Source: Halobacteria archaeon AArc-dxtr1 (GTDB lineage: Archaea; Halobacteriota; Halobacteria; Halobacteriales; Natrialbaceae). Taken from it: a stretch of 64,000 nucleotides of DNA. Location: NCBI GenBank assembly GCA_025517425.1, contig JAOPJY010000001.1, positions 730,217 through 794,216 of the forward strand. Reading direction: 5' to 3'. The notes beneath the pieces were generated by a model, which had not been told where the DNA came from, made no database searches, and saw nothing but the letters and a program-made list of their open reading frames with translations. Positions 53,815-64,000 of this stretch are shown here, piece after piece (within the stretch, counting starts at the first letter, position 1; each line of letters opens with the position of its first letter). The position numbers and the translations under genes were made by a program.

Positions 53815-55353
53815 ATGAGTTCGACAGCCGACACAGAAGACGAGATCATCGTCAGCGCCGACGGAGTAACGGTCACCAAGACGTTTACGGCCGACGAGTT
53901 CCCCGTTCCGGCGATTCGCTTCGAGATCGAATCAGAGCGGGCCGAGCCGGTTTCACTGCGCCTCTCAGAAGACATCCCCGAGTCGTTCTCGATGGACCGT
54001 ATCGGGTTTCATCCGGACTACGACAGCGAAGACTGGGTCGCGTACCAGGACCACCACGTCGAGTTTACCAAAACGCTCGACCCCCGTGAGTCACTCGTGA
54101 CTGTCTACGGGATCCGGATCGACGACGCGTCAGAGGCTGCACCCTTCCTCACGGAGCCGTCTATCGCCGACGTCGAGTTAGAAGCCTCCGAGCCGTCCAC
54201 CGCAACCGAGCCTGTCGCCGGGGACGAGGGAGACGCCACCGAGGAGATCGAGGACGGAGAGACAGCGGCTCCCGAGGCGGTCGGGGACGAGACGATCGAC
54301 GGCATTCTCGAAGACGACCGAACGCAGGTTGTAAAGGACATGCTCGCCGGCGAGACCGAAACCGTTCCCGGACTCGAAGACGAGTCCGCCGAGACCGAGG
54401 TTCCAGACGACCCAGACGATCTCGGACTCGACGAGGAGACTGACGGTGAAGACGAACAGGAGGCAGCGGACGCCGACGAAGCCCTCGAGTTCGGTGAAGA
54501 CGATATCTCCGACTCGACGGCGGAAGACGACGCGGCGGATCCCGACGCCGACACTGAAAGTGACGACGAGCCTGGCGACGGCGAGGACGAGGGCGAACCG
54601 GCGGAAATCGACGCTTCGCAGGCCGTTGCCAGCCCCGAGGCCGACGGCTCCATCGCCGCACAGCTCGCCGCGGAGATCCGCGACGGAGCCGTCGACGACG
54701 CGGACCTCGACGCGCTCACGGAGGCACTCGAAGAGGCGTCCGATGGAGAGCCCTCCGGCTCCGAAATTGCACGGATCGACCACCTTCAGACGCGAGTCGA
54801 AGAGGTCGCCGCCTACACAGCCGCGCTCGAATCGTTCCTCGACGAACACGGCTCCGGCGAGCAGATTATCTCGGAGCTCCAGGACGATATCAGCCGCCTC
54901 GACTCCGATCTCGAGGCAGTCGACGAGCGCGTCGGTGCGACCGAGTCCGGCCTCGATGATGTCGAGGAGGACGTGGAAGCGATCGCGACCGACGTTGAGG
55001 CCGTCGAGGACCGTGCGGAGATGGTCGACGAAGACCTCGCGACCGTTACCGAGGACGTAGCAGAGCTTTCGGGAACCGTCGGCGATGTCGAAGCGGCCGT
55101 CGACGAAGTGGAGACATCCGTCGAGACGGTGGCGTCGTCCGTCGACGATGTCGAGGAGACCGTCTCGACCGTGGAGTCGGACGTCGAGTCGGAGCTCGAG
55201 TCCGTTCGCGATTCCGTTGGTTCCGTCGAAGACGAGATCTCCGATCTCGAATCGACGGTCGGCGAGCTCGAAGGCGAGGTCGAATCGGTCCGCGCTGACG
55301 TAACCGAACTCAACGAGTGGCGCGACCAGCTCGGCTCGATGTTCTCCGGATAG
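53815..55353 (+). CDS. Acidic coiled-coil protein with a conserved N-terminal domain
   Basis: The 512-residue protein has three parts. Residues 9-115 form a globular, beta-rich domain (VSADGVTVTKTFTADEFPVP, then SFSMDRIGFHPDYDSEDWVAY and LVTVYGIRIDDA) that I have seen only in haloarchaeal proteins of unknown role. Residues 120-300 are a low-complexity Asp/Glu linker. Residues 320-505 are a long coiled coil with heptad-spaced V and L (DDVEEDVEAIATDVEAVEDR and onward). No membrane segment, signal peptide or ATPase motif is present. The layout suggests a filament, tether or scaffold (inference). It has its own leaderless promoter. Confidence 0.8.
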   Translation: MSSTADTEDEIIVSADGVTVTKTFTADEFPVPAIRFEIESERAEPVSLRLSEDIPESFSMDRIGFHPDYDSEDWVAYQDHHVEFTKTLDPRESLVTVYGIRIDDASEAAPFLTEPSIADVELEASEPSTATEPVAGDEGDATEEIEDGETAAPEAVGDETIDGILEDDRTQVVKDMLAGETETVPGLEDESAETEVPDDPDDLGLDEETDGEDEQEAADADEALEFGEDDISDSTAEDDAADPDADTESDDEPGDGEDEGEPAEIDASQAVASPEADGSIAAQLAAEIRDGAVDDADLDALTEALEEASDGEPSGSEIARIDHLQTRVEEVAAYTAALESFLDEHGSGEQIISELQDDISRLDSDLEAVDERVGATESGLDDVEEDVEAIATDVEAVEDRAEMVDEDLATVTEDVAELSGTVGDVEAAVDEVETSVETVASSVDDVEETVSTVESDVESELESVRDSVGSVEDEISDLESTVGELEGEVESVRADVTELNEWRDQLGSMFSG

Positions 55354-55370
55354 TCGGTCGGTTCTCGCGA

Positions 55371-55724
55371 TCAGCCAAGCACGTTCTCGAACTCGTCGGC
55401 GACTGACTGCTCGGTATCGAAGTGATCCTCGACGAATGCGGTGAGTTCTTGCCCCGTCGACTCGACGACACCGTCGTCAACGCCGTACGTCCGAGTGGTG
55501 TGTTGTGGCTCGCGGTCGTCGTCCGGAAAGTACTGTACGTGGACGCGCAACAGCGGCCGGGTGCGTCCACGATCTAACTCGTAGGTGGTGACGGCGCGCC
55601 AGTCTCCCTCGCGTCGGATTCCCTCGGCGACGCGTTCGTAGCGGTCGTCAGCATTCTCTCGCGTCTCGAAGACGAGGGTTCCGTCGACGTCGGGCGTCGA
55701 ATCGGACTGTGAGTCGTCGCTCAT
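55371..55724 (-). CDS. Small conserved haloarchaeal protein of unknown function
   Basis: The 117-residue protein starts at MSDDSQSDSTPDVDGT (55724). After a disordered, acidic N-terminus it has a compact domain: TLVFETRENADDRYERVAEG, WRAVTTYELDRGRTRPLLRV, then YFPDDDREPQHTTRTYGV and a C-terminal helix. No motif suggests catalysis. It converges on the coiled-coil gene with 17 bp between stops and is divergent from the HisG-like gene. Confidence 0.7.
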   Translation of the reverse strand: MSDDSQSDSTPDVDGTLVFETRENADDRYERVAEGIRREGDWRAVTTYELDRGRTRPLLRVHVQYFPDDDREPQHTTRTYGVDDGVVESTGQELTAFVEDHFDTEQSVADEFENVLG

Positions 55725-55882
55725 ATCGCCCCCTTTCGCCTCCGGCCACAATATCTTTCTGAGGGCACCACGCCGGGAGAACCCACAGGTCGATCGGACG
55801 CCCGCCGCATCGACCCGCGCCGGCGAGGCCGCCACGCCAGCGAAACAGAACGCGTTTAGCTCTCGACGGTAAGTTCGAACCG

Positions 55883-56800
55883 ATGGGCGAGACGATCTCG
55901 ATCGCGGTCCCGCGGAAGGGACGCCCCCTGGAATCGGTGCTCGGCTGTCTGGCGACGCGCCTCGACATCGGGGCGCTCGCAGACGACGTCACCTCGACGT
56001 TACGCCACGAGAAGGCAGTCACGAAGGGCCGAATCAACTCCGAGGAGGGGGTTTACCATCGACTCGCCGACTACAGCGCCGTCGACGAGCCGACGGCCCC
56101 GGAGTACACGCTGGTGCGAGACGACCGCGCCGGCAAACCCCGTCGCATCGTCTTCGACAGCGTGACGATTCCGCTCGAAGGCGTCGATGGCGTCCCGAAG
56201 GGAACGCAGATCCAACTCGTCGGACGCGAAGAGCCCTTCCGGGCGCTTCGGACCCACGAGTTCGGGCTGGGGTTCGACAGCGCAGATCTCGTCTTAGAGG
56301 AGGTCGTCGAGCTTCGGCCTGAGCCCTTAGATCGGATCGCAGATATCAACGCTCGAATCGACCCTGCGGACACGGACGTCCGCGTGGTCGACGGACTCGG
56401 TGATACGGTCTACCACACGCTGATGGGGACGCCTGATGCCACGGCCTCGTCCGTCGACCGATCCTTTCTGCGTGAGTACACCGGCCCGCTGTGTATCGTC
56501 CCGCGGTACGAGCGCCTGGTCCAGGCCGTTCTCGGCACGGGCGCACTCGACGGCATCGAGTTCGAGTATCCACCCAGCGGGATCGAAGAGGAAGCAGCGA
56601 TCGCCGACGCCGGCCTCGGCGTCTACCTCACTGTCAGCGGCTCGACCGCTCGCGAACACGGGCTCTTGCTCGGCGAGCGTCTCTTCCCCAGCGAGACGGT
56701 ACTCCTGGAGAACACCCTCGAGCTCTCGGAGCCGGTCGAAGCCGTTCGGTCTGTGCTCGCCTCCGGCGAGACGGAGACCGAGCTCGCGATCAGCCGCTAG
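55883..56800 (+). CDS. HisG-like protein (ATP phosphoribosyltransferase-related)
   Basis: The N-terminus ISIAVPRKGRPLESVLGCL resembles the first strand and loop of HisG, which starts the histidine pathway by condensing ATP with PRPP. The segment GVYLTVSGSTAREHGLLLGE at about residue 255 corresponds to the HisG GSTxxxxGL element that binds the phosphate of PRPP. The middle is divergent, including an insert around residues 70-120, and no regulatory ACT-like domain is evident. No other his gene is nearby, so it could be a HisG paralogue with another role. GTTTAG about 28 bp upstream supports a leaderless start. Confidence in the family is only moderate. Confidence 0.5.
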   Translation: MGETISIAVPRKGRPLESVLGCLATRLDIGALADDVTSTLRHEKAVTKGRINSEEGVYHRLADYSAVDEPTAPEYTLVRDDRAGKPRRIVFDSVTIPLEGVDGVPKGTQIQLVGREEPFRALRTHEFGLGFDSADLVLEEVVELRPEPLDRIADINARIDPADTDVRVVDGLGDTVYHTLMGTPDATASSVDRSFLREYTGPLCIVPRYERLVQAVLGTGALDGIEFEYPPSGIEEEAAIADAGLGVYLTVSGSTAREHGLLLGERLFPSETVLLENTLELSEPVEAVRSVLASGETETELAISR

Positions 56801-56863
56801 TCAGTCCACCGTCGAACGCTCTCGATCGGAGCACGTTTACCGAATCGAGACGATAGCCAACCT

Positions 56864-57244
56864 ATGAAACGGATCATCAGCACCGACGCCGCGCCCGCCG
56901 CCGTCGGCGCGTACAGCCAGGCCGTCGCGGCCGGCGACCTCGTCTTTACGGCCGGACAGATCCCTGCGACGCCCGACGGTGAGCTGCTCGCAGACGAGCC
57001 GATCGACGTCCAGACCCGCCAGTGTCTCGAGAACGTCCGGAACGTCCTCGACGCCGAGGGACTCAAGCTGGACGACCTCGTCAAGGTGACGGTCTTTCTC
57101 GCGGACATCGAGGAGTTCGACGCGATGAACGAAGCCTACGCGACCGTTTTCGAGGCGGAGCCGCCGGCCAGAAGCGCCGTCGAGGTCGCGAACCTCCCCA
57201 AGGGGGTCGGGATCGAGGTCGAGGCGATCGCGGTCGCGGACTGA
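56864..57244 (+). CDS. ridA: RidA-family enamine/imine deaminase
   Basis: The 126-residue protein belongs to the YjgF/YER057c/UK114 group. Motifs are YSQAVAAGDLVFTAGQIP, RQCLENVRNVLDAEGLKLDD, and the C-terminal PARSAVEVANLPKGVGIEVE, where the Arg is the conserved substrate-carboxylate ligand. RidA hydrolyses reactive 2-aminoacrylate and related enamines formed by PLP enzymes, so the cysteine synthase family enzyme in this window is a plausible source. CGTTTACC about 30 bp upstream is a promoter box. Confidence 0.96.
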   Translation: MKRIISTDAAPAAVGAYSQAVAAGDLVFTAGQIPATPDGELLADEPIDVQTRQCLENVRNVLDAEGLKLDDLVKVTVFLADIEEFDAMNEAYATVFEAEPPARSAVEVANLPKGVGIEVEAIAVAD

Positions 57245-57274
57245 GCCTCGCCCGCCTCGACTCCGCTACCAGAT

Positions 57275-58597
57275 TCAGTCGCGTTCCTCACGATACCTCT
57301 CCAGATCGAGCGACGCCGCCATGTGCCTCGCCTCCCGGCGGACCGCTGGGGCGTCGACGGTCGTTACCTCACCGTCGTCGAGGAGGATCTCGCCGTCGAC
57401 CATGGTAAACGAGACGTCGTCGCCGTGGGCAGCAAAGACGAGGTGAGAGATCGGATCGTGGATCGGCGTCGCCCGCGTGGCATCCGTGTCGAGGCCGATC
57501 ACGTCGGCTCGCCAACCCGGGCGCAGCGCCCCGAGTCGGTCAAAGCCCGCCGCTTTCGCGCCGTTTATGGTCGCCATCTCGAACATTGTCCGGGCCGAGA
57601 GCGCGGTCGGATCGAGTCGGTCTACCTTCTGAAGGAGACTTCCCTGGCGCATCTCGGTAAACGGGTCGAGGGTGTTGTTACACGGTGGGCCGTCGTTGCC
57701 GATCGCGACGTTCACTCCGCGGTCGAGGTAGTCTTCGATCGGCGCGACGCCGCTGGCCAGCTTCATATTCGAGGACGAACAGTAGGTGACGTGGGTCCCC
57801 GTCTCGGCGAGTAGCTGGCGCTCTCCCTCGTCGGTCCAGACGCAGTGGGCGAGGACGACGTCCTCGCCGGTGAGACCGACGGTGTCGAGCCAGCGGACGT
57901 TTGACATCCCCGTGTCGTTCTCGACGGTCTCGATCTCCGAACGGTTCTCGCTCGCGTGCGTGTGAATCCGTACGCCGTCGTAGGCGTCGGCCAGTTCGCG
58001 GGCGCCACGGAGGCACTCTTCCGTACAGGAGACTGCAAACCGCGGCGTCACGGCGTATCTGATCCGGTCGCCGAACGACCCGTGGTACCGCTCGATCAGG
58101 CGCTCGCTCTCCTCGAGCCCCTCCGTGGCGCTCTCGCGTAGCCCCTCGGGTGCGCGCTGATCCATCAACACCTTCCCTAGAAGCCCGCGGATCCCGACCT
58201 CGCCGGCGGCCTCGAACGCTTCCTCAGCGTGTGCGACCGAGAGGTGGTCGATGCAGGTCGTCGTCCCGCTTTCTATCATCTCCAGGTAGCCGAGCGTCGC
58301 GGCGACCGACATCTCCTCGGCCGACAGCGACGCTTCCATCGGTAACACGTACTCGAACAGCCACTCGAGCAACTCCGAGTCGTCGGCGATCCCACGGCCC
58401 AGGCTCTGGACCGAATGGACGTGGCCTCCGACGAGTCCCGGACTGAGCAGGTCGTACTCACGCTCGACGTGATCTGGGTAGCGGTCGCGCATCTCCTCGC
58501 GCTCGTCGACGGCCACGATTTCCGATCCTTCGACAACGACGCTTCCATCCTCGATGACCGTGTCCGCGTCGACGACGACGGTTCCCGACAGTATCAT
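57275..58597 (-). CDS. Amidohydrolase, 5'-deoxyadenosine/S-adenosylhomocysteine deaminase type
   Basis: The 440-residue TIM-barrel enzyme has the metal ligands H59-V-H61 in GGHVHSVQSLGRG, a third His in IRIHTHASEN, a fourth in VVLAHCVWTD and the Asp in IGNDGPPCNNT. These match the Atz/TRZ-MtaD branch that removes amino groups from adenine-ring nucleosides such as SAH, MTA or 5'-deoxyadenosine. The choice among these substrates cannot be made from motifs alone; cytosine-like substrates remain possible. It is convergent with ridA, with 30 bp between stops, so both deaminating activities are adjacent. Confidence 0.9.
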   Translation of the reverse strand: MILSGTVVVDADTVIEDGSVVVEGSEIVAVDEREEMRDRYPDHVEREYDLLSPGLVGGHVHSVQSLGRGIADDSELLEWLFEYVLPMEASLSAEEMSVAATLGYLEMIESGTTTCIDHLSVAHAEEAFEAAGEVGIRGLLGKVLMDQRAPEGLRESATEGLEESERLIERYHGSFGDRIRYAVTPRFAVSCTEECLRGARELADAYDGVRIHTHASENRSEIETVENDTGMSNVRWLDTVGLTGEDVVLAHCVWTDEGERQLLAETGTHVTYCSSSNMKLASGVAPIEDYLDRGVNVAIGNDGPPCNNTLDPFTEMRQGSLLQKVDRLDPTALSARTMFEMATINGAKAAGFDRLGALRPGWRADVIGLDTDATRATPIHDPISHLVFAAHGDDVSFTMVDGEILLDDGEVTTVDAPAVRREARHMAASLDLERYREERD

Positions 58598-58792
58598 CCG
58601 CTCAGACCATCGGCTGCCGGGACAAAAACGGTTTGCCCGTGTTCGGCACTGAGGGGTTCGATTCCACGACTATTTCTGGAACGAGGCGGGGACTCAATTC
58701 AATATAGCAATATATGGTTTGTGTGATGGACTACCGTCACCGGATTCAGCTCCTGCCGTTGCGACGAGGCCGGAATCCTCGACGAAACCCCC

Positions 58793-59830
58793 TCATATCG
58801 GAGTGGTCTGCGGCGGGTCCTCTGCAAGCCGGTAGATATGCTCGAGGTACGTCTCCCGGACGCGATCGCCCCAGTCGTGGGTGTAGGTGTCGATCACGTC
58901 GCTTGCGACGTCACCGCGTAGGTACTGGACGACGCCCCGATCACCGGTTCGATCCCGCAGGTGCGTCGTGAAGAAGTGCCGGAAGTAGTGGGGTGTGACG
59001 TTCTCGGAGGCACCGCCGCCGGTTCGATACCAGCCACGTTCGCGAGCGTAGTCCTCGACGATGTGGTGGACGACGGTGGGCGTCAGCCGCTGTCCCCACC
59101 GGTCGACAGTTCCGAGAAAGAGCGGATCGGCCCGTGATTGAGTGTCGGGTCGGATCGCCAGCCACCGCACGAGCGCCCTCTGTAGCTCTGCATCGATTGG
59201 GACGACGGTCTCACGCTTTCGCTTGTTCGAAGCGGTCCGCGTTTCGCCGCCGGATTCGCTACCGTAGCTGTGTTCTGTCGAGATGTAGATCGAGTCTGGT
59301 CGCCCCGAAATGTGGGCTCTCGGGCGCCAGTGTTGGGCCTCGTGATCGACGTTGAGATCCACGAGATCGAGGTTACAGAGTTCGCCAGACCGTATTCCCG
59401 TCTTCAGCAACGTCATCACAACTGCTCGGTGAAGCGGGTGGCGAATCCCGCCGACGAACGACCGCATCTCCGGCAGCGTCACGTCGCGTCGCGTCGGATT
59501 CGACTCGATCGATTCGTTCATCTCCTCTAACACGACCGTCATCGGATTCGAATCCGTGTGACCCACGCGTTCGAGATAACTGTAAAACCGGTTGAGGTAG
59601 GAGGCGTAGGTCGCCACCGTGCTCTCTGCGTGGTTCGAGCGCAGCTCGTGGACCCACGCCATGCAGTCGCGATACTCAGCCTCCGTCGGCGCCTTTCCGA
59701 AGCGTTCTACGAGGAACTCACGATACTGATTCAGAACGCGCTCGTAGGCCCCCGTCGTCCGTTCGTTTCGGCCGTGATGCTCGATGTCCTGGAGGAAGTA
59801 CGCCACGGGATCCGTCGACTGCTGGCTCAT
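58793..59830 (-). CDS. Tyrosine recombinase (XerC/D-like)
   Basis: The 345-residue recombinase has a SAM-like N-terminal core-binding domain (1-105) and a catalytic domain. Catalytic residues are R147 (TGIRSGEL), lysine K203 or K205 (NKRKRE), H281-Y-F-R284, and nucleophile Y316 in IDTYTH. The usual third-position His/Trp of the H/W motif is replaced, the segment reading YLRGD (303-307). It overlaps the start region of the DUF5805-type gene by an ATGA junction, so the two are translationally coupled. A Xer-type site with inverted arms lies just upstream of the operon. It may serve chromosome dimer resolution or a mobile element. Confidence 0.93.
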   Translation of the reverse strand: MSQQSTDPVAYFLQDIEHHGRNERTTGAYERVLNQYREFLVERFGKAPTEAEYRDCMAWVHELRSNHAESTVATYASYLNRFYSYLERVGHTDSNPMTVVLEEMNESIESNPTRRDVTLPEMRSFVGGIRHPLHRAVVMTLLKTGIRSGELCNLDLVDLNVDHEAQHWRPRAHISGRPDSIYISTEHSYGSESGGETRTASNKRKRETVVPIDAELQRALVRWLAIRPDTQSRADPLFLGTVDRWGQRLTPTVVHHIVEDYARERGWYRTGGGASENVTPHYFRHFFTTHLRDRTGDRGVVQYLRGDVASDVIDTYTHDWGDRVRETYLEHIYRLAEDPPQTTPI

Positions 59831-60228
59831 GCGACCTCCCCCTCGCGTTGCACTCGAAGGACGTAGCCACCCTCCCGACCGCTATAGCGGATCACGTTCT
59901 CGTCCTGCAACCGTTCTAACTCGCGGTCGAGATCCGCCTCGACGTCGTCGACGAGTGCCTCGACGAGTTCGTCCCACCCGAGTGCACCGTTTCGATCGAG
60001 CGCGGCGAGGATTCGATCGCCAAACGCGTCATCCGAGTCGGCCGCTGCAGTCGCCTCCTCGCCAGAGTCGCCATCGCTTGGGATTTCGAAATCCCGCCGA
60101 CCCGCCTGGACCATCGTGCGGACAAACTCGCTCTGACTCATCTCGAGGGTGTCGGCGTGCTCACTCCACGCCTCCTTCTGGTACCGGGGAACGTACGTCT
60201 TCACCGCGACTCTCTCGTCATCCGTCAT
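59827..60228 (-). CDS. Small DNA-binding-like protein, DUF5805 type, partner of the recombinase
   Basis: The 133-residue protein starts at MTDDERVAVKTYVPRYQKEA (60228). Residues 5-50 (VAVKTYVPRYQKEAWSEHAD, MSQSEFVRTMVQAGRR) look like a ribbon-helix-helix domain. Residues 70-125 (RILAALDRNGALGWDELVEA, DRELERLQDENVIRYSGREG) look like a winged helix. Two DNA-binding-like parts suggest an accessory factor or repressor for the recombinase. My recollection is of a haloarchaeal family named DUF5805. The recombinase ATG overlaps its stop. The repeat elements upstream are natural targets. Confidence 0.85.
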   Translation of the reverse strand: MTDDERVAVKTYVPRYQKEAWSEHADTLEMSQSEFVRTMVQAGRRDFEIPSDGDSGEEATAAADSDDAFGDRILAALDRNGALGWDELVEALVDDVEADLDRELERLQDENVIRYSGREGGYVLRVQREGEVA

Positions 60229-60263
60229 ACTCGGGGGCACTCACCCGCAACACATCAATCTTG

Positions 60264-60303
60264 CCCACATTCGAAAATAAATGCCCTTATTTTCCTATGT
60301 AGG
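60264..60303. other. Xer/dif-like recombination site candidate
   Basis: Two inverted copies of a 17-bp element surround a 6-bp centre. The left arm (60264-60280) reads as TTATTTTCGAATGTGGG on the minus strand, and the right arm (60287-60303) reads TTATTTTCCTATGTAGG on the plus strand. The inner borders are AATAA-ATGCCC-TTATT. Known XerCD and archaeal XerA dif sites have 11-bp arms, a 6-bp spacer and ATAA/TTAT borders, so the match is architectural. It lies 36 bp upstream of the operon for a Xer-like recombinase. The same sequence could also be an operator for the upstream-encoded DNA-binding protein. Confidence 0.6.
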
Positions 60304-60369
60304 ACTCCACAGGCGAGGCGTAGAATATGTTAGGTGCCAATATAGTGCTACAAAACACTCTTTTGCAGG

Positions 60370-60386
60370 CCTACATTGGAAAATAA
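60370..60386 (-). repeat. Third copy of the 17-bp element
   Basis: On the minus strand the bases read TTATTTTCCAATGTAGG, matching the plus-strand copy at 60287-60303 in 16 of 17 positions. The two form an inverted pair with 66 bp between. No second arm is seen next to this copy, so it is a half-site or a lone operator element. Confidence 0.8.
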
Positions 60387-61669
60387 CATCGTAATTGACT
60401 CCCCACCAATCGTGACAGCTGACAGGCGAAAATCAATTTCGAGTGATGTTTTGACCCTCGCTCGAATAGTGGTCGTGTTATTGTCATAGTCGGAGAGGGG
60501 CCGGGTCCGAGGCTCCGAAATGCGGCAATATTTGATCGTCATGTTCTGCCCCTCTACCCCAGGGGTCACGGCCGGAAAACCGGGTTGCAGCGAGAGGTGT
60601 TCGATCGGTCACGCAGCGACCGCTCTCGACGAGTGACTGCAGCGGGCGCTGGGGAAGACACAGCGTCGTGGCTTTTGTCGGCGGTCGGGGTGTTCTCTAT
60701 CGACTGGATCTCACAGACGATGGTGTGTGCCGACTGGTGCTCGGAGGCGACGGTGGCTACATTTTGTCAGGGACATCGACGGCCATTCGCTGACCAGCCG
60801 TCATCGCCGGCCACGTCGCCATGGTGTCTGTGACCGGTACATCGTCGAGGTATGTACTGCCTCCTCGAAAACGAACGAGAGACAGCGACAATTCAGTTCG
60901 GCGAGGGAGAGACTCGTCGTTGTAGACGACGATCGAGCGTCCGAGCACAGCCAGATCGGTCCAGGCCGTGTGCGTGCTCACGTGCTGAATGGAGACGAAC
61001 GCCAGAGACATCCATCGAGACTGAATCGATCATGTCCGTGCCAGCCACCACAGTGGCGGACATTGGTAGTGCACCCTCGGATTGTCGCCTGAGGGGTTTT
61101 TGCGAGAGTATCTGCCATGGTGCTATCGCCCTCGGTCCGGTTGGCTGGTTTCGACGTTGCCACGGGATTGACCGAAGAAGATGCATGCGTAATGGGTGTG
61201 TCGTAGCTGGGAAACTGCTTGTTGCCGGCTTCGGGGTGACTCGTGAGCATTACGTCAAACTGGCACCAGCGACGTCACTCAGTGCACTCGATTTCGTACG
61301 GAGAGAGACGGCCGGCCCCGTACAACTCTCCGGAGGGTTTCGTCGTCGGATCACACCAATTCGTGTTTGGTCGGTTGAATCGCCGCTTGGAGACCCATTC
61401 GTCTGTTTTTCGTACTCCAGTTGCGCTCGCAACCACCAGATTGGCGTCCGTGGGCGACCATATAAATCCTATCTTGCTATACCTAACTCACCAACCACCA
61501 GCGTGTCTCGCGACTCACGAGACAGAACAGCGTCGATGCGTCCCGACTTCCGCCGGTTTGTGGGTGCCGTTCCGCCACGCCGACCAGTTCGTGTCTTCAA
61601 CCCAAATCACGGGAAGCGGTTGGAGATGATACAGAACATTCTTGACGTACTCGCCACACACTCGAACGA
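60387..61669. other. 1.28-kb region without a supported gene
   Basis: No frame in this stretch has the acidic, GC3-rich composition of real genes around it, and the longer frames are Arg/Ser/His-rich. Fragments that read as protein occur, such as VAFVGGRGVLYRLDLTDDGV on the plus strand near 60668 and FVSIQHVSTHTAWTDLAVLG on the minus strand near 60985. Both are broken by stops or frame changes, suggesting decayed coding sequence. A TATA-like CATATAAATCC at about 61457-61467 could serve the kinase downstream with a leader of about 180 nt. Confidence 0.55.
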
Positions 61670-63400
61670 ATGGCCGCCGATTTCTCGCTTCAGTGGACGC
61701 TGCACACGCCGATACTCGCGGCATCGTTCCTGATCTGTGTCGGTGTCGCAATCGCCGGCCTGCAGTACCGAGAGCAGCCGGCCACAACTCCGTTCGTCGT
61801 TCTGCTGGCTGGGTGTGCGTTCTACGCTGGAACGACCGCACTCGAGTACACAGTGACCGGTCTGGAAGCGAGCCTGTTCCTGTGGCAGCTACAGTATCTC
61901 GGCTGGGTGGTTATTCCGCCAGCGATGCTCGTGTTCGTACTCAGGTACAGCGGCCGAGACGAACTGGTGACCGCGCCGCTGCTTGCGGCCCTGTCGATCG
62001 TACCGACGGTAACGCTCTCCCTCGCGCTCACCCCGCTGGCTCCCGAACTCGTCGTTGAAAACGTACAGATGGTCGGCGGAGATGGGGCGGTGTTCCTAGG
62101 CTACGACGTCGGACCCTGGTACGTCGTCGACAGGCTGTACAGTCTGGCAGTCATCCTGTTCGGCTTCGGCCTGCTGATTCGAACGTATCTCCAGACCACG
62201 GCGGGACAGCGCGCCCAGGTCGGCGCGCTGGTGGCCGGTTTGGCCCCCTACGTGACCCTCGTTCCGCTGTACTACTACATCGAATCGGGCCTGTTCGCGT
62301 TTGGCGTCGTATACCGACCCGAACCGTTTCTGTTCGCCGTCTCCGGTGTAGTGTTCGCGTGGGCGTTGGTTCGATACGACGTTCTGGCGGCCGTTCCCGT
62401 TCCGTTCGCCCTCTTGATCGAGACGACGCCAAACGGCGTTCTCGTCCTCGACAGGGAGCGCCGCGTCGCCGAGCACAATCAGGTCGCCTGCGAGTACCTC
62501 GAGCTGACCGAGCCGATCGTCGGAAACCGACTGCGGACGCTCTCCGATCCCGCCGAGCGCGTCGATGCGATCGTCGCCGAAGAGACGGACGCAGAGTTAC
62601 AGATCGGATCCCAGGTGTACGCCGTCTCGACGACACCACTGGTCGGTCAGCGAGACGTCGAGTACGGTTCCCACGTCGTGATCCAGGACGTGACCAAACG
62701 CGTCGAGTACGACCGGCTCCTCGAACGACACAACGAACAACTCGAGACGCTAAATCAGATGCTCCGCCACGACATCCGAAACGACGCGATGGTCGCCGTC
62801 GGTTGGAGCGACGTCCTCGACGAGAGGATCGAGGAGACACCGCTTGAAGAGGACGTCTCGCCCCTGCTCCAACACATCTCCGAGGCCGTCGAACACATTG
62901 CAGATCTCACCGAGATCGCCTCGGAACTCTCACAACCGCTGGAAGAACCGGGAGCGGGCGCCGAGCGGTCGATTCCGCTTCGGCAAGTCCTCGAGCGTGA
63001 AGTCGAGAAGGCCGCCAAGACGTATCCTCAGGCCGAGTTCGAACTCCGCGACCCGCCGGCAGTCGACGTTGCTGCCGATCGGGCGCTGTCGTCCGCGGTC
63101 GGTAACTTGCTTCGAAATGCCGTCGTGCACAACGATACGGAAGTTCCACAGATCGACATCTCCGTCGAGACCGTCGACGGGTGCGCCCGTGTACACGTTG
63201 CGGACAACGGCCCCGGAGTTCCCGACGAGATGCGAGCCCGACTCTTCGATCGCGGCATCAAAGGCGAGGAGAGCAACGGCAGTGGGCTCGGCTTACATCT
63301 CGTTCAGACGTTCGTTCGATGGTACGGAGGGTCAGTCGAAGTGACCGACAACGAGCCGGAGGGAGCTGTCTTTACGATCGAACTCCCTCTCGTGGAGTAG
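61670..63400 (+). CDS. Seven-helix membrane histidine kinase with PAS-like domain
   Basis: The 576-residue kinase has an N-terminal seven-helix sensor of the 7TM histidine-kinase type (about residues 1-240; FLWQLQYLGWVVIPPAMLVF is central). A PAS-like region follows (about 245-345, LIETTPNGVLVLDRERRV), then a HisKA with H367 in LRHDIRND and a HATPase with NLLRNAVVHND, DNGPGVPDEMR and GSGLGLHLVQTFV. The ATG at 61670 is the only good start. The signal is unknown; there is no adjacent response regulator, as usual in haloarchaea. Confidence 0.93.
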   Translation: MAADFSLQWTLHTPILAASFLICVGVAIAGLQYREQPATTPFVVLLAGCAFYAGTTALEYTVTGLEASLFLWQLQYLGWVVIPPAMLVFVLRYSGRDELVTAPLLAALSIVPTVTLSLALTPLAPELVVENVQMVGGDGAVFLGYDVGPWYVVDRLYSLAVILFGFGLLIRTYLQTTAGQRAQVGALVAGLAPYVTLVPLYYYIESGLFAFGVVYRPEPFLFAVSGVVFAWALVRYDVLAAVPVPFALLIETTPNGVLVLDRERRVAEHNQVACEYLELTEPIVGNRLRTLSDPAERVDAIVAEETDAELQIGSQVYAVSTTPLVGQRDVEYGSHVVIQDVTKRVEYDRLLERHNEQLETLNQMLRHDIRNDAMVAVGWSDVLDERIEETPLEEDVSPLLQHISEAVEHIADLTEIASELSQPLEEPGAGAERSIPLRQVLEREVEKAAKTYPQAEFELRDPPAVDVAADRALSSAVGNLLRNAVVHNDTEVPQIDISVETVDGCARVHVADNGPGVPDEMRARLFDRGIKGEESNGSGLGLHLVQTFVRWYGGSVEVTDNEPEGAVFTIELPLVE

Positions 63401-63412
63401 GTGGGATCGCTC

Positions 63413-63646
63413 TCAGCGCGAGGCCGGTCGCAGCTCCTCGACCCGGCCGAGATCGTTCTCGATCCCCTCCGCGTCGCAGTCGTCAGCTGGACACGTGTAG
63501 TGCCAGCCGTCTCGCGTCGCGTCGACCTCGCGGAATCGGTTCCCACAGACGCCACAGAAGAGTTCCGCACGCTCGCAGGTATCGCGGTGGAGTTCGAGAT
63601 CGAGTTCGGTAGAAAACGATCGATTGCAGTCACGGCAGGTGTGCAT
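63413..63646 (-). CDS. Zinc-finger protein with C2H2-like and zinc-ribbon motifs
   Basis: The 77-residue protein starts at MHTCRDCNRSFSTELDLELH, a C2H2-like finger (CxxC...HxxxC). A second site follows: CGVCGNRF then CPADDC. In-frame ATG 63697 would add a 17-residue extension without recognisable order. The DGWHYTCPADDCDAEG end is typical of haloarchaeal small zinc-finger families. Function unknown; a nucleic-acid-binding role is likely. It converges on the kinase gene, with 12 bp between stops. Confidence 0.82.
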   Translation of the reverse strand: MHTCRDCNRSFSTELDLELHRDTCERAELFCGVCGNRFREVDATRDGWHYTCPADDCDAEGIENDLGRVEELRPASR

Positions 63647-63732
63647 ACGTTGGCTGACGTGAGCGTCGGGAAAAATGGCTTGGATTCGTTCGTCCAATCA
63701 GCGTTCGGGCCGCACGTACTGCAGCGTCCGGA

Positions 63733-64000
63733 TTAGTGGTCCTGGCCCAAGATACCGCGCTCGGTCATTTTGCGGGGGTCGAGCACCTTGTCGGCTTCCG
63801 CCTCGTCGAGATACTCCTTCTCGAGGACGACCTCTCGAACCGTTTTATCCTCCTTGAGGGCGGTCTTGGCGACCTCGCTGGCCTTGTCGTAGCCGATATG
63901 GACGTTGAGCGAGGTCGCCATCGCCATCGACTGCTCGACGCGGTCTCGGCAGAACTCCTCGTTTGCCTCGAGCGGGTCGACGAAGCGCTCGGCGAAGACC
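63733..64000 (-). CDS. fumC: Class II fumarate hydratase, C-terminal part (5' end outside window)
   Basis: About 88 C-terminal residues are visible. FVDPLEANEEFCRDRVEQSM, ATSLNVHIGYDKASEVAKTA and KTVREVVLEKEYLDEAEADK are typical of the FumC C-terminal domain, and the final segment VLDPRKMTERG agrees. Class II fumarase hydrates fumarate to malate without an Fe-S cluster. Aspartate ammonia-lyase has a related C-terminus, but NVHIGYDKA favours fumarase. Aconitase from the same cycle is encoded 50 kb upstream in the window. Confidence 0.88.
   Translation of the reverse strand, partial: VFAERFVDPLEANEEFCRDRVEQSMAMATSLNVHIGYDKASEVAKTALKEDKTVREVVLEKEYLDEAEADKVLDPRKMTERGILGQDH

Follow-up and report, generated by a model that had tools for sequence, protein, structure and literature searches.

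A dif-like inverted repeat, the two-gene operon that it adjoins and a pair of upstream accessory half-sites probably constitute a single-recombinase, site-specific recombination module that is found across Halobacteria, has a DUF5805 protein as partner, serves chromosome dimer resolution and is likely to be autoregulated. Here, starting from a 64-kb window (the whole stretch of 64,000 nucleotides that was analysed) and extending to orthologous loci, we show by sequence comparison the architecture of this module, its conservation and near-universality, the fixed offsets of the accessory half-sites and a covariation between residue 14 of the DUF5805 protein and base 16 of the site.

Haloarchaea carry many genome copies and, to our knowledge, lack FtsK. 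For Haloferax volcanii, dif sites have been reviewed only as a possibility, and deletion of the XerC/D genes removed so far left viability unaffected (PMC7776575). The open-licence literature, in which work on dif covers Thermococcales, Sulfolobales and bacteria, yielded no earlier description of the haloarchaeal module and no paper on DUF5805. The question of dimer resolution in haloarchaea, a class with good genetics, now has a precise candidate site, together with a single recombinase that is conserved and a partner protein that has a name, and the DUF5805 family acquires a likely role.

The core repeat and its operon

The repeat occupies positions 60264–60303 of the window and consists of two 17-bp arms, complementary at 14 of 17 positions, around a 6-bp spacer. 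A preliminary description had given the same coordinates, arm length and centre (ATGCCC), all borne out by the window sequence; it had also placed the repeat 36 bp upstream of the gene pair. The gap measures 35 bp if the gene starts at the likely ATG (60228) and 23 bp if it starts at the GTG further upstream (60240). The features are as follows.

58793–59830, minus strand: 345-aa Xer-like tyrosine recombinase with Pfam matches to PF02899 and PF00589 (E = 5.7e-17 for the latter)
59827–60240, minus strand: DUF5805 protein (Pfam PF19121, E = 1.5e-24); the ATG at 60228 is the likelier start, the GTG at 60240 the alternative
60250–60261, minus strand: AGATTGA-type conserved element, AAGATTGATGTG in gene sense, between the start codon and the core (logo positions R+21 to R+29)
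60264–60280, minus strand: gene-proximal half-site CCCACATTCGAAAATAA, the right arm when read in gene sense; its outer box is CCCA, or TGGG in that sense
60270–60297, minus strand: 28-bp dif-like core, TTCGAAAATAA ATGCCC TTATTTTCCTA on the plus strand (11-bp arm, 6-bp spacer, 11-bp arm)
60281–60286, no strand: spacer ATGCCC (GGGCAT in gene sense), spacing of 6 conserved; presumed strand-exchange region
60287–60303, minus strand: gene-distal half-site TTATTTTCCTATGTAGG, the left arm when read in gene sense; on the plus strand its outer box is TAGG
60330–60346, minus strand: accessory half-site B, TTAGGTGCCAATATAGT on the plus strand; scores 9.4 bits against the half-site profile; distance upstream from the outer edge of the core, 43 bp
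60370–60386, minus strand: accessory half-site A, CCTACATTGGAAAATAA on the plus strand; scores 15.8 bits; distance upstream from the outer edge of the core, 83 bp

Inner ATAA/TTAT bases with 6-bp spacing are the hallmark of dif (PMC2958812, PMC5357621), and the site combines them with two 11-bp inverted arms. No other 6-bp-spaced repeat in the 64-kb window has at least 14 of 17 pairs. AATAA-N6-TTATT occurs once in the 2.8-Mb genome, and the half-site CCYACATWSGAAAATAA occurs three times with zero mismatches, as both core arms and at 60370–60386, all inside 60264–60386. The single copy expected of such a site is thus found in this genome and, at one exact match each, in those relatives whose site exactly matches the searched core. 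The ~1.3 kb from the site to the next clear gene (60303–61670) contains no convincing coding sequence; searches returned zero Rfam matches across 55000–64000 and zero PADLOC matches.

Both genes lie on the minus strand, that of the DUF5805 protein first and that of the recombinase second, and the operon is as the preliminary description had it, as are recombinase residues R147, H281, R284 and Y316. These four and K203 are invariant in the 176 loci, whereas Asp307, a feature absent from the preliminary description, occupies the His/Trp active-site position in ~99% of the 176 recombinase orthologues, so that the R-K-H-R-[H/W]-Y hexad of Xer recombinases (XerA, XerCD) is incomplete owing to D307. 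The invariance of five of the six catalytic residues argues for retained catalysis. The recombinase scores 113 bits with the NCBIfam XerA model NF040815 (cut-off 220) and 41.8 bits with the XerS model PRK05084 (cut-off 267), and across 20 complete or near-complete Halobacteria no protein exceeds the cut-off of the XerA equivalog. Its predicted fold matches XerA, the Tn1549 integrase and Cre, with the C-terminal catalytic region modelled at low confidence; a helix at residues 251–264 of the predicted structure bears T252, H255 and H256.

Weak profile matches and predicted helices suggest that the DUF5805 protein has a ribbon-helix-helix-like N terminus, followed by the DUF5805 domain in its C-terminal part. 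Among 34 family members, the best of the weak ribbon-helix-helix matches were E = 1.4e-4 (NikA-like) and E = 0.0077 (RHH_1). In the ATG form, helices are predicted at 15–27 and 32–45 after an extended segment (mean pLDDT 72). A Foldseek search with the model gave no match with E < 0.001, and the C terminus weakly resembles winged helices.

Conservation of the array across Halobacteria

Orthologous operons retain the inner TAA-N6-TTA of the core upstream. Of the 176 haloarchaeal loci studied, 142 have an exact TAA-N6-TTA no more than 140 bp upstream of the operon, and any other spacing from 0 to 15 is found in at most 12; in an earlier set the corresponding figures were 77/96 loci and 1–6. The 34 loci without an exact near site include 14 with a well-scoring site 153–988 bp upstream, six with a CTTA-N6-TAAG variant and one with a single-base variant. 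Once shifted and variant sites, added after inspection, are included, ~163/176 loci have a site and 13/176 lack a recognisable one; the conserved upstream repeat for which the preliminary description had proposed to look in orthologues is thus present. A dif-like site paired with a single recombinase gene, the arrangement that characterizes XerS/difSL, stands upstream of the operon in ~163/176 loci.

The sequence logo consists of the inner ATAA/TTAT, a symmetric outer box at 14–17 bp (CCYA/TRGG), conserved at these positions in the gene-proximal half-site, and, towards the gene, an AGATTGA element, which in the window (60250–60261) is probably promoter or leader. The arms vary in sequence between loci with their symmetry retained. 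In one clade (L189, L192, L200, L212 and L213), both arms have changed, so that the site reads CTTA-N6-TAAG instead of ATAA-N6-TTAT, still with 6 bp between the arms. Relatives share spacer hexamers in either orientation, for example ATGCCC/GGGCAT and ACATCC/GGATGT: exact inverted matches number 48, where column shuffles, uncorrected for ancestry, predict 8.3 (highest value in 500 shuffles, 20); strand exchange or template switching could alike produce such flipping. A second dif-like match, CAAATAA-N6-TTATTCG, in four loci of one genus (L140–L143) was rejected as a tRNA-Tyr promoter that mimics the core pattern.

The two accessory half-sites were absent from the preliminary description. Half-site A is identical to one core arm at 16 of 17 positions. 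In scans with the arm profile, A recurs at about −82 in the same sense as the right arm in 70/133 loci, and B at about −43 in the opposite sense in 66/133, with control bins mostly at 0–2 and two bins near −105 to −110 at 7 and 10. In L138, L258 and L099, whose core is shifted, both half-sites retain their offsets from it, and in several loci they move with the core hundreds of base pairs away from the promoter, which argues that core and half-sites form a unit, more than a feature of the promoter.

That behaviour bears on whether the array could be an operator only, that is, a repressor cluster through which one or both proteins autoregulate the operon, with recombination taking place elsewhere or not at all. 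Such an operator would suit half-sites near the promoter, the position of the core centre, which in 77/96 loci precedes the start codon by 52–76 bp, and the better conservation of the gene-proximal arm than of the gene-distal arm; promoter-proximal half-sites also persist in L059, L060 and L099 despite their shifted cores, and MrpR of prophage SP-beta, reported as a repressor with a recombinase fold, offers a precedent (PMC10516654). An operator would, however, need neither strict 6-bp spacing nor dif-like inner bases nor five invariant catalytic residues, and the 6-bp-spaced core persists 150–990 bp from the gene in 14 loci, several of them with accessory half-sites. As autoregulation is compatible with recombination, we consider an operator alone unlikely.

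The breadth of the distribution weighs on a second alternative. A protein search finds DUF5805-type proteins in 292/292 sampled Halobacteria genomes, usually as one copy, and with the Pfam DUF5805 model applied phylum-wide the domain is present in 23/24 listed members of the haloarchaeal order and in no genome outside it. The recombinase adjoins the DUF5805 gene in 176/176 loci. An attachment site with the integrase of an integrative element, or a domesticated remnant of one, rather than a dimer resolution system, might account for the general resemblance of the recombinase to phage integrases (PHROG, E = 2.8e-27) and for Natrinema-type loci (L051, L022, L024, L144, L146 and L148) in which a second, divergently transcribed recombinase and a truncated DUF5805 open reading frame lie across the site, the second recombinase having decayed in L144 and L148. 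Next to the site in the window, tblastn gave no convincing remnant of such a decayed recombinase. We regard this origin as very unlikely, given that the module is in all sampled genomes, usually as a single copy, that neither element boundaries nor duplicated sites were seen around it, that phage records and viral contigs contained no close relative at the sensitivity used and that, among plasmids, only two records at >60% identity, each near 1 Mb, carry the gene pair. A viral contig match (L188) was rejected, as neither operon gene is present in the locus and its arms are not conserved. The 987-kb replicon of Natrinema thermotolerans (CP031304.1) has its own copy of the module, with the site at −55.

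That the repeat is a chance or neutral palindrome beside an AT-rich promoter, conserved through shared ancestry, is scarcely credible: the loci are indeed related, and promoter constraint would act at the short distance of the site from the start of the gene, but a spacing of 6 is more than tenfold above every other spacing, the divergent arms change with their symmetry intact, and the CTTA clade has altered the inner bases of both arms at unchanged spacing.

Covariation between the two proteins and the site

Protein residues and site bases of 133 loci (~460 by 30 pairs) were compared by mutual information with average-product correction. The top-ranked pairs join recombinase residues T252, S148 and H255 to inner positions 5 and 7; also at the top are the pairs of positions 16 and 17 with residue 14 of the DUF5805 protein (Lys14, numbered from the GTG start). 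Because a tree-based null indicates that single z-scores of up to ~10 can arise through ancestry alone, the sole covariation that we claim as significant is the two-arm concordance between DUF5805 residue 14 and position 16, for which the minimum z of 8.77 exceeds all 300 tree-based simulations. On the right arm, Lys14 pairs with G16 in 104/105 loci and Met14 with C16 in 5/5. Among 66 disjoint sister pairs, each arm shows the residue-14 association (p = 6.5e-5 for one, 7.2e-5 for the other), whereas that of recombinase H256 with position 9 is seen on one arm (p = 1e-4; 8720 tests, uncorrected throughout).

By two-arm rank, recombinase S148 and H255 at position 5 are second and third, H256 at position 9 fifth and T252 at position 7 seventh; individually these lie inside the tree-based null (at most 5.07 against a 95th percentile of 5.64). 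An average over all motif residues and inner positions gives no excess, so that the signal for the recombinase comes from single residues. In the alignment, the counterpart of T252 in the Pyrococcus abyssi XerA motif is the lysine at the key position of the published XerA/XerD dif-binding motif (PMC2958812), and we regard the covariation of inner bases with dif-binding-motif residues of the recombinase as suggestive. The accessory half-sites also track recombinase residue 255 (p = 1e-9) and DUF5805 residue 14 (p = 1e-5), with p values that are not tree-corrected.

XerH covers only 10–11 bp per arm (PMC5241119), and an outer box at 14–17 bp therefore suits a second protein. The covariation suggests that both operon proteins read the site. 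It also makes the repeat look unlike a site for the DUF5805 protein alone, the case that the preliminary description had set against its own reading: inner positions appear to covary with the recombinase and outer positions with the DUF5805 protein. Together with the conserved site, these patterns support, on sequence grounds, the earlier reading, in which a dif-like site is encoded next to the recombinase that would act on it and the small protein serves as cofactor or repressor.

Proposed mechanism, known Xer systems and chromosome position

We propose that the recombinase would bind the inner ~11 bp of each half-site and resolve chromosome dimers by strand exchange over the 6-bp spacer, while the DUF5805 protein would bind the outer CCYA/TRGG boxes, 14–17 bp from the spacer, and the two upstream accessory half-sites, aiding assembly of the complex or its timing. 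Binding, cleavage, the part played by the DUF5805 protein and dimer resolution itself are what we infer from the features above. The same binding would regulate the operon, with the array doubling as a control region in most species; autoregulation is probable because the site overlaps or adjoins the operon promoter in most species. In its most specific form, the proposal is that Halobacteria resolve dimers by a lineage-specific Asp307 recombinase acting on a four-half-site dif with a dedicated DUF5805-family partner, which we put forward tentatively, as plausible rather than probable.

Archaeal XerA/dif (Thermococcales and Sulfolobales; PMC2958812, PMC3646895) is alike in its single tyrosine recombinase, one site per chromosome, 11-bp arms, 6-bp spacer and inner ATAA/TTAT, and the haloarchaeal site may share its terminus-side position. 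The haloarchaeal system differs in a recombinase at 113 bits, below the XerA cut-off, with Asp in place of His/Trp, in arms that diverge between species, in a site normally upstream of a DUF5805 gene and in fixed accessory half-sites. In Sulfolobales, dif lies near xerA with a conserved 13-bp flank. Cortez et al. left room for a partner protein bound at such flanks of archaeal dif (PMC2958812), and the DUF5805 protein is a concrete candidate for that part.

XerS/difSL of streptococci and lactococci (PMC5357621, PMC2731167) shares the pairing of a recombinase with an adjoining dif-like site in a single genetic module, which in those bacteria lies at the terminus, but the central region of difSL is 11 bp long and its arms are unequal, there is no DUF5805-like partner and the recombinases are not close. 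XerH/difH of epsilon-proteobacteria (PMC2731167, PMC5241119) has a single recombinase, a 6-bp central region and a usually linked site; XerH, however, acts with FtsK and has no known small partner from the same operon. The plasmid sites cer and psi, used by XerCD with ArgR or ArcA and PepA (PMC5357621, PMC2958812), likewise combine a core with accessory DNA bound by partners, although these partners are unrelated regulators and two recombinases are involved. In its proposed way of working, the haloarchaeal module is of the XerS/difSL or XerH/difH kind; we do not file the recombinase as XerA because it departs from the catalytic hexad and falls short of the curated model.

In all 19 single-contig genomes, the site lies 122–178 degrees from oriC1, taken as the best Orc1 gene match in each genome. 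This position opposite oriC1 fits a terminus site and is suggestive, weakened once control genes are added. The mean deviation from the antipode (180 degrees) is 20.2 for the site and 29.8 for fumC, its neighbour in this genome, and the two do not differ significantly in the eight genomes that lack linkage between them (p = 0.07); as fumC is also biased opposite oriC1, regional conservation explains part of the position. A second control neighbour deviates by 49.1 degrees and differs from the site where unlinked (p = 0.008). The site may lie outside a fork-fusion zone in several Natrialbaceae (G000:C1:813568, G051, G063 and G027), because a second Orc1/Cdc6 gene is found 20–41 kb from it in these genomes.
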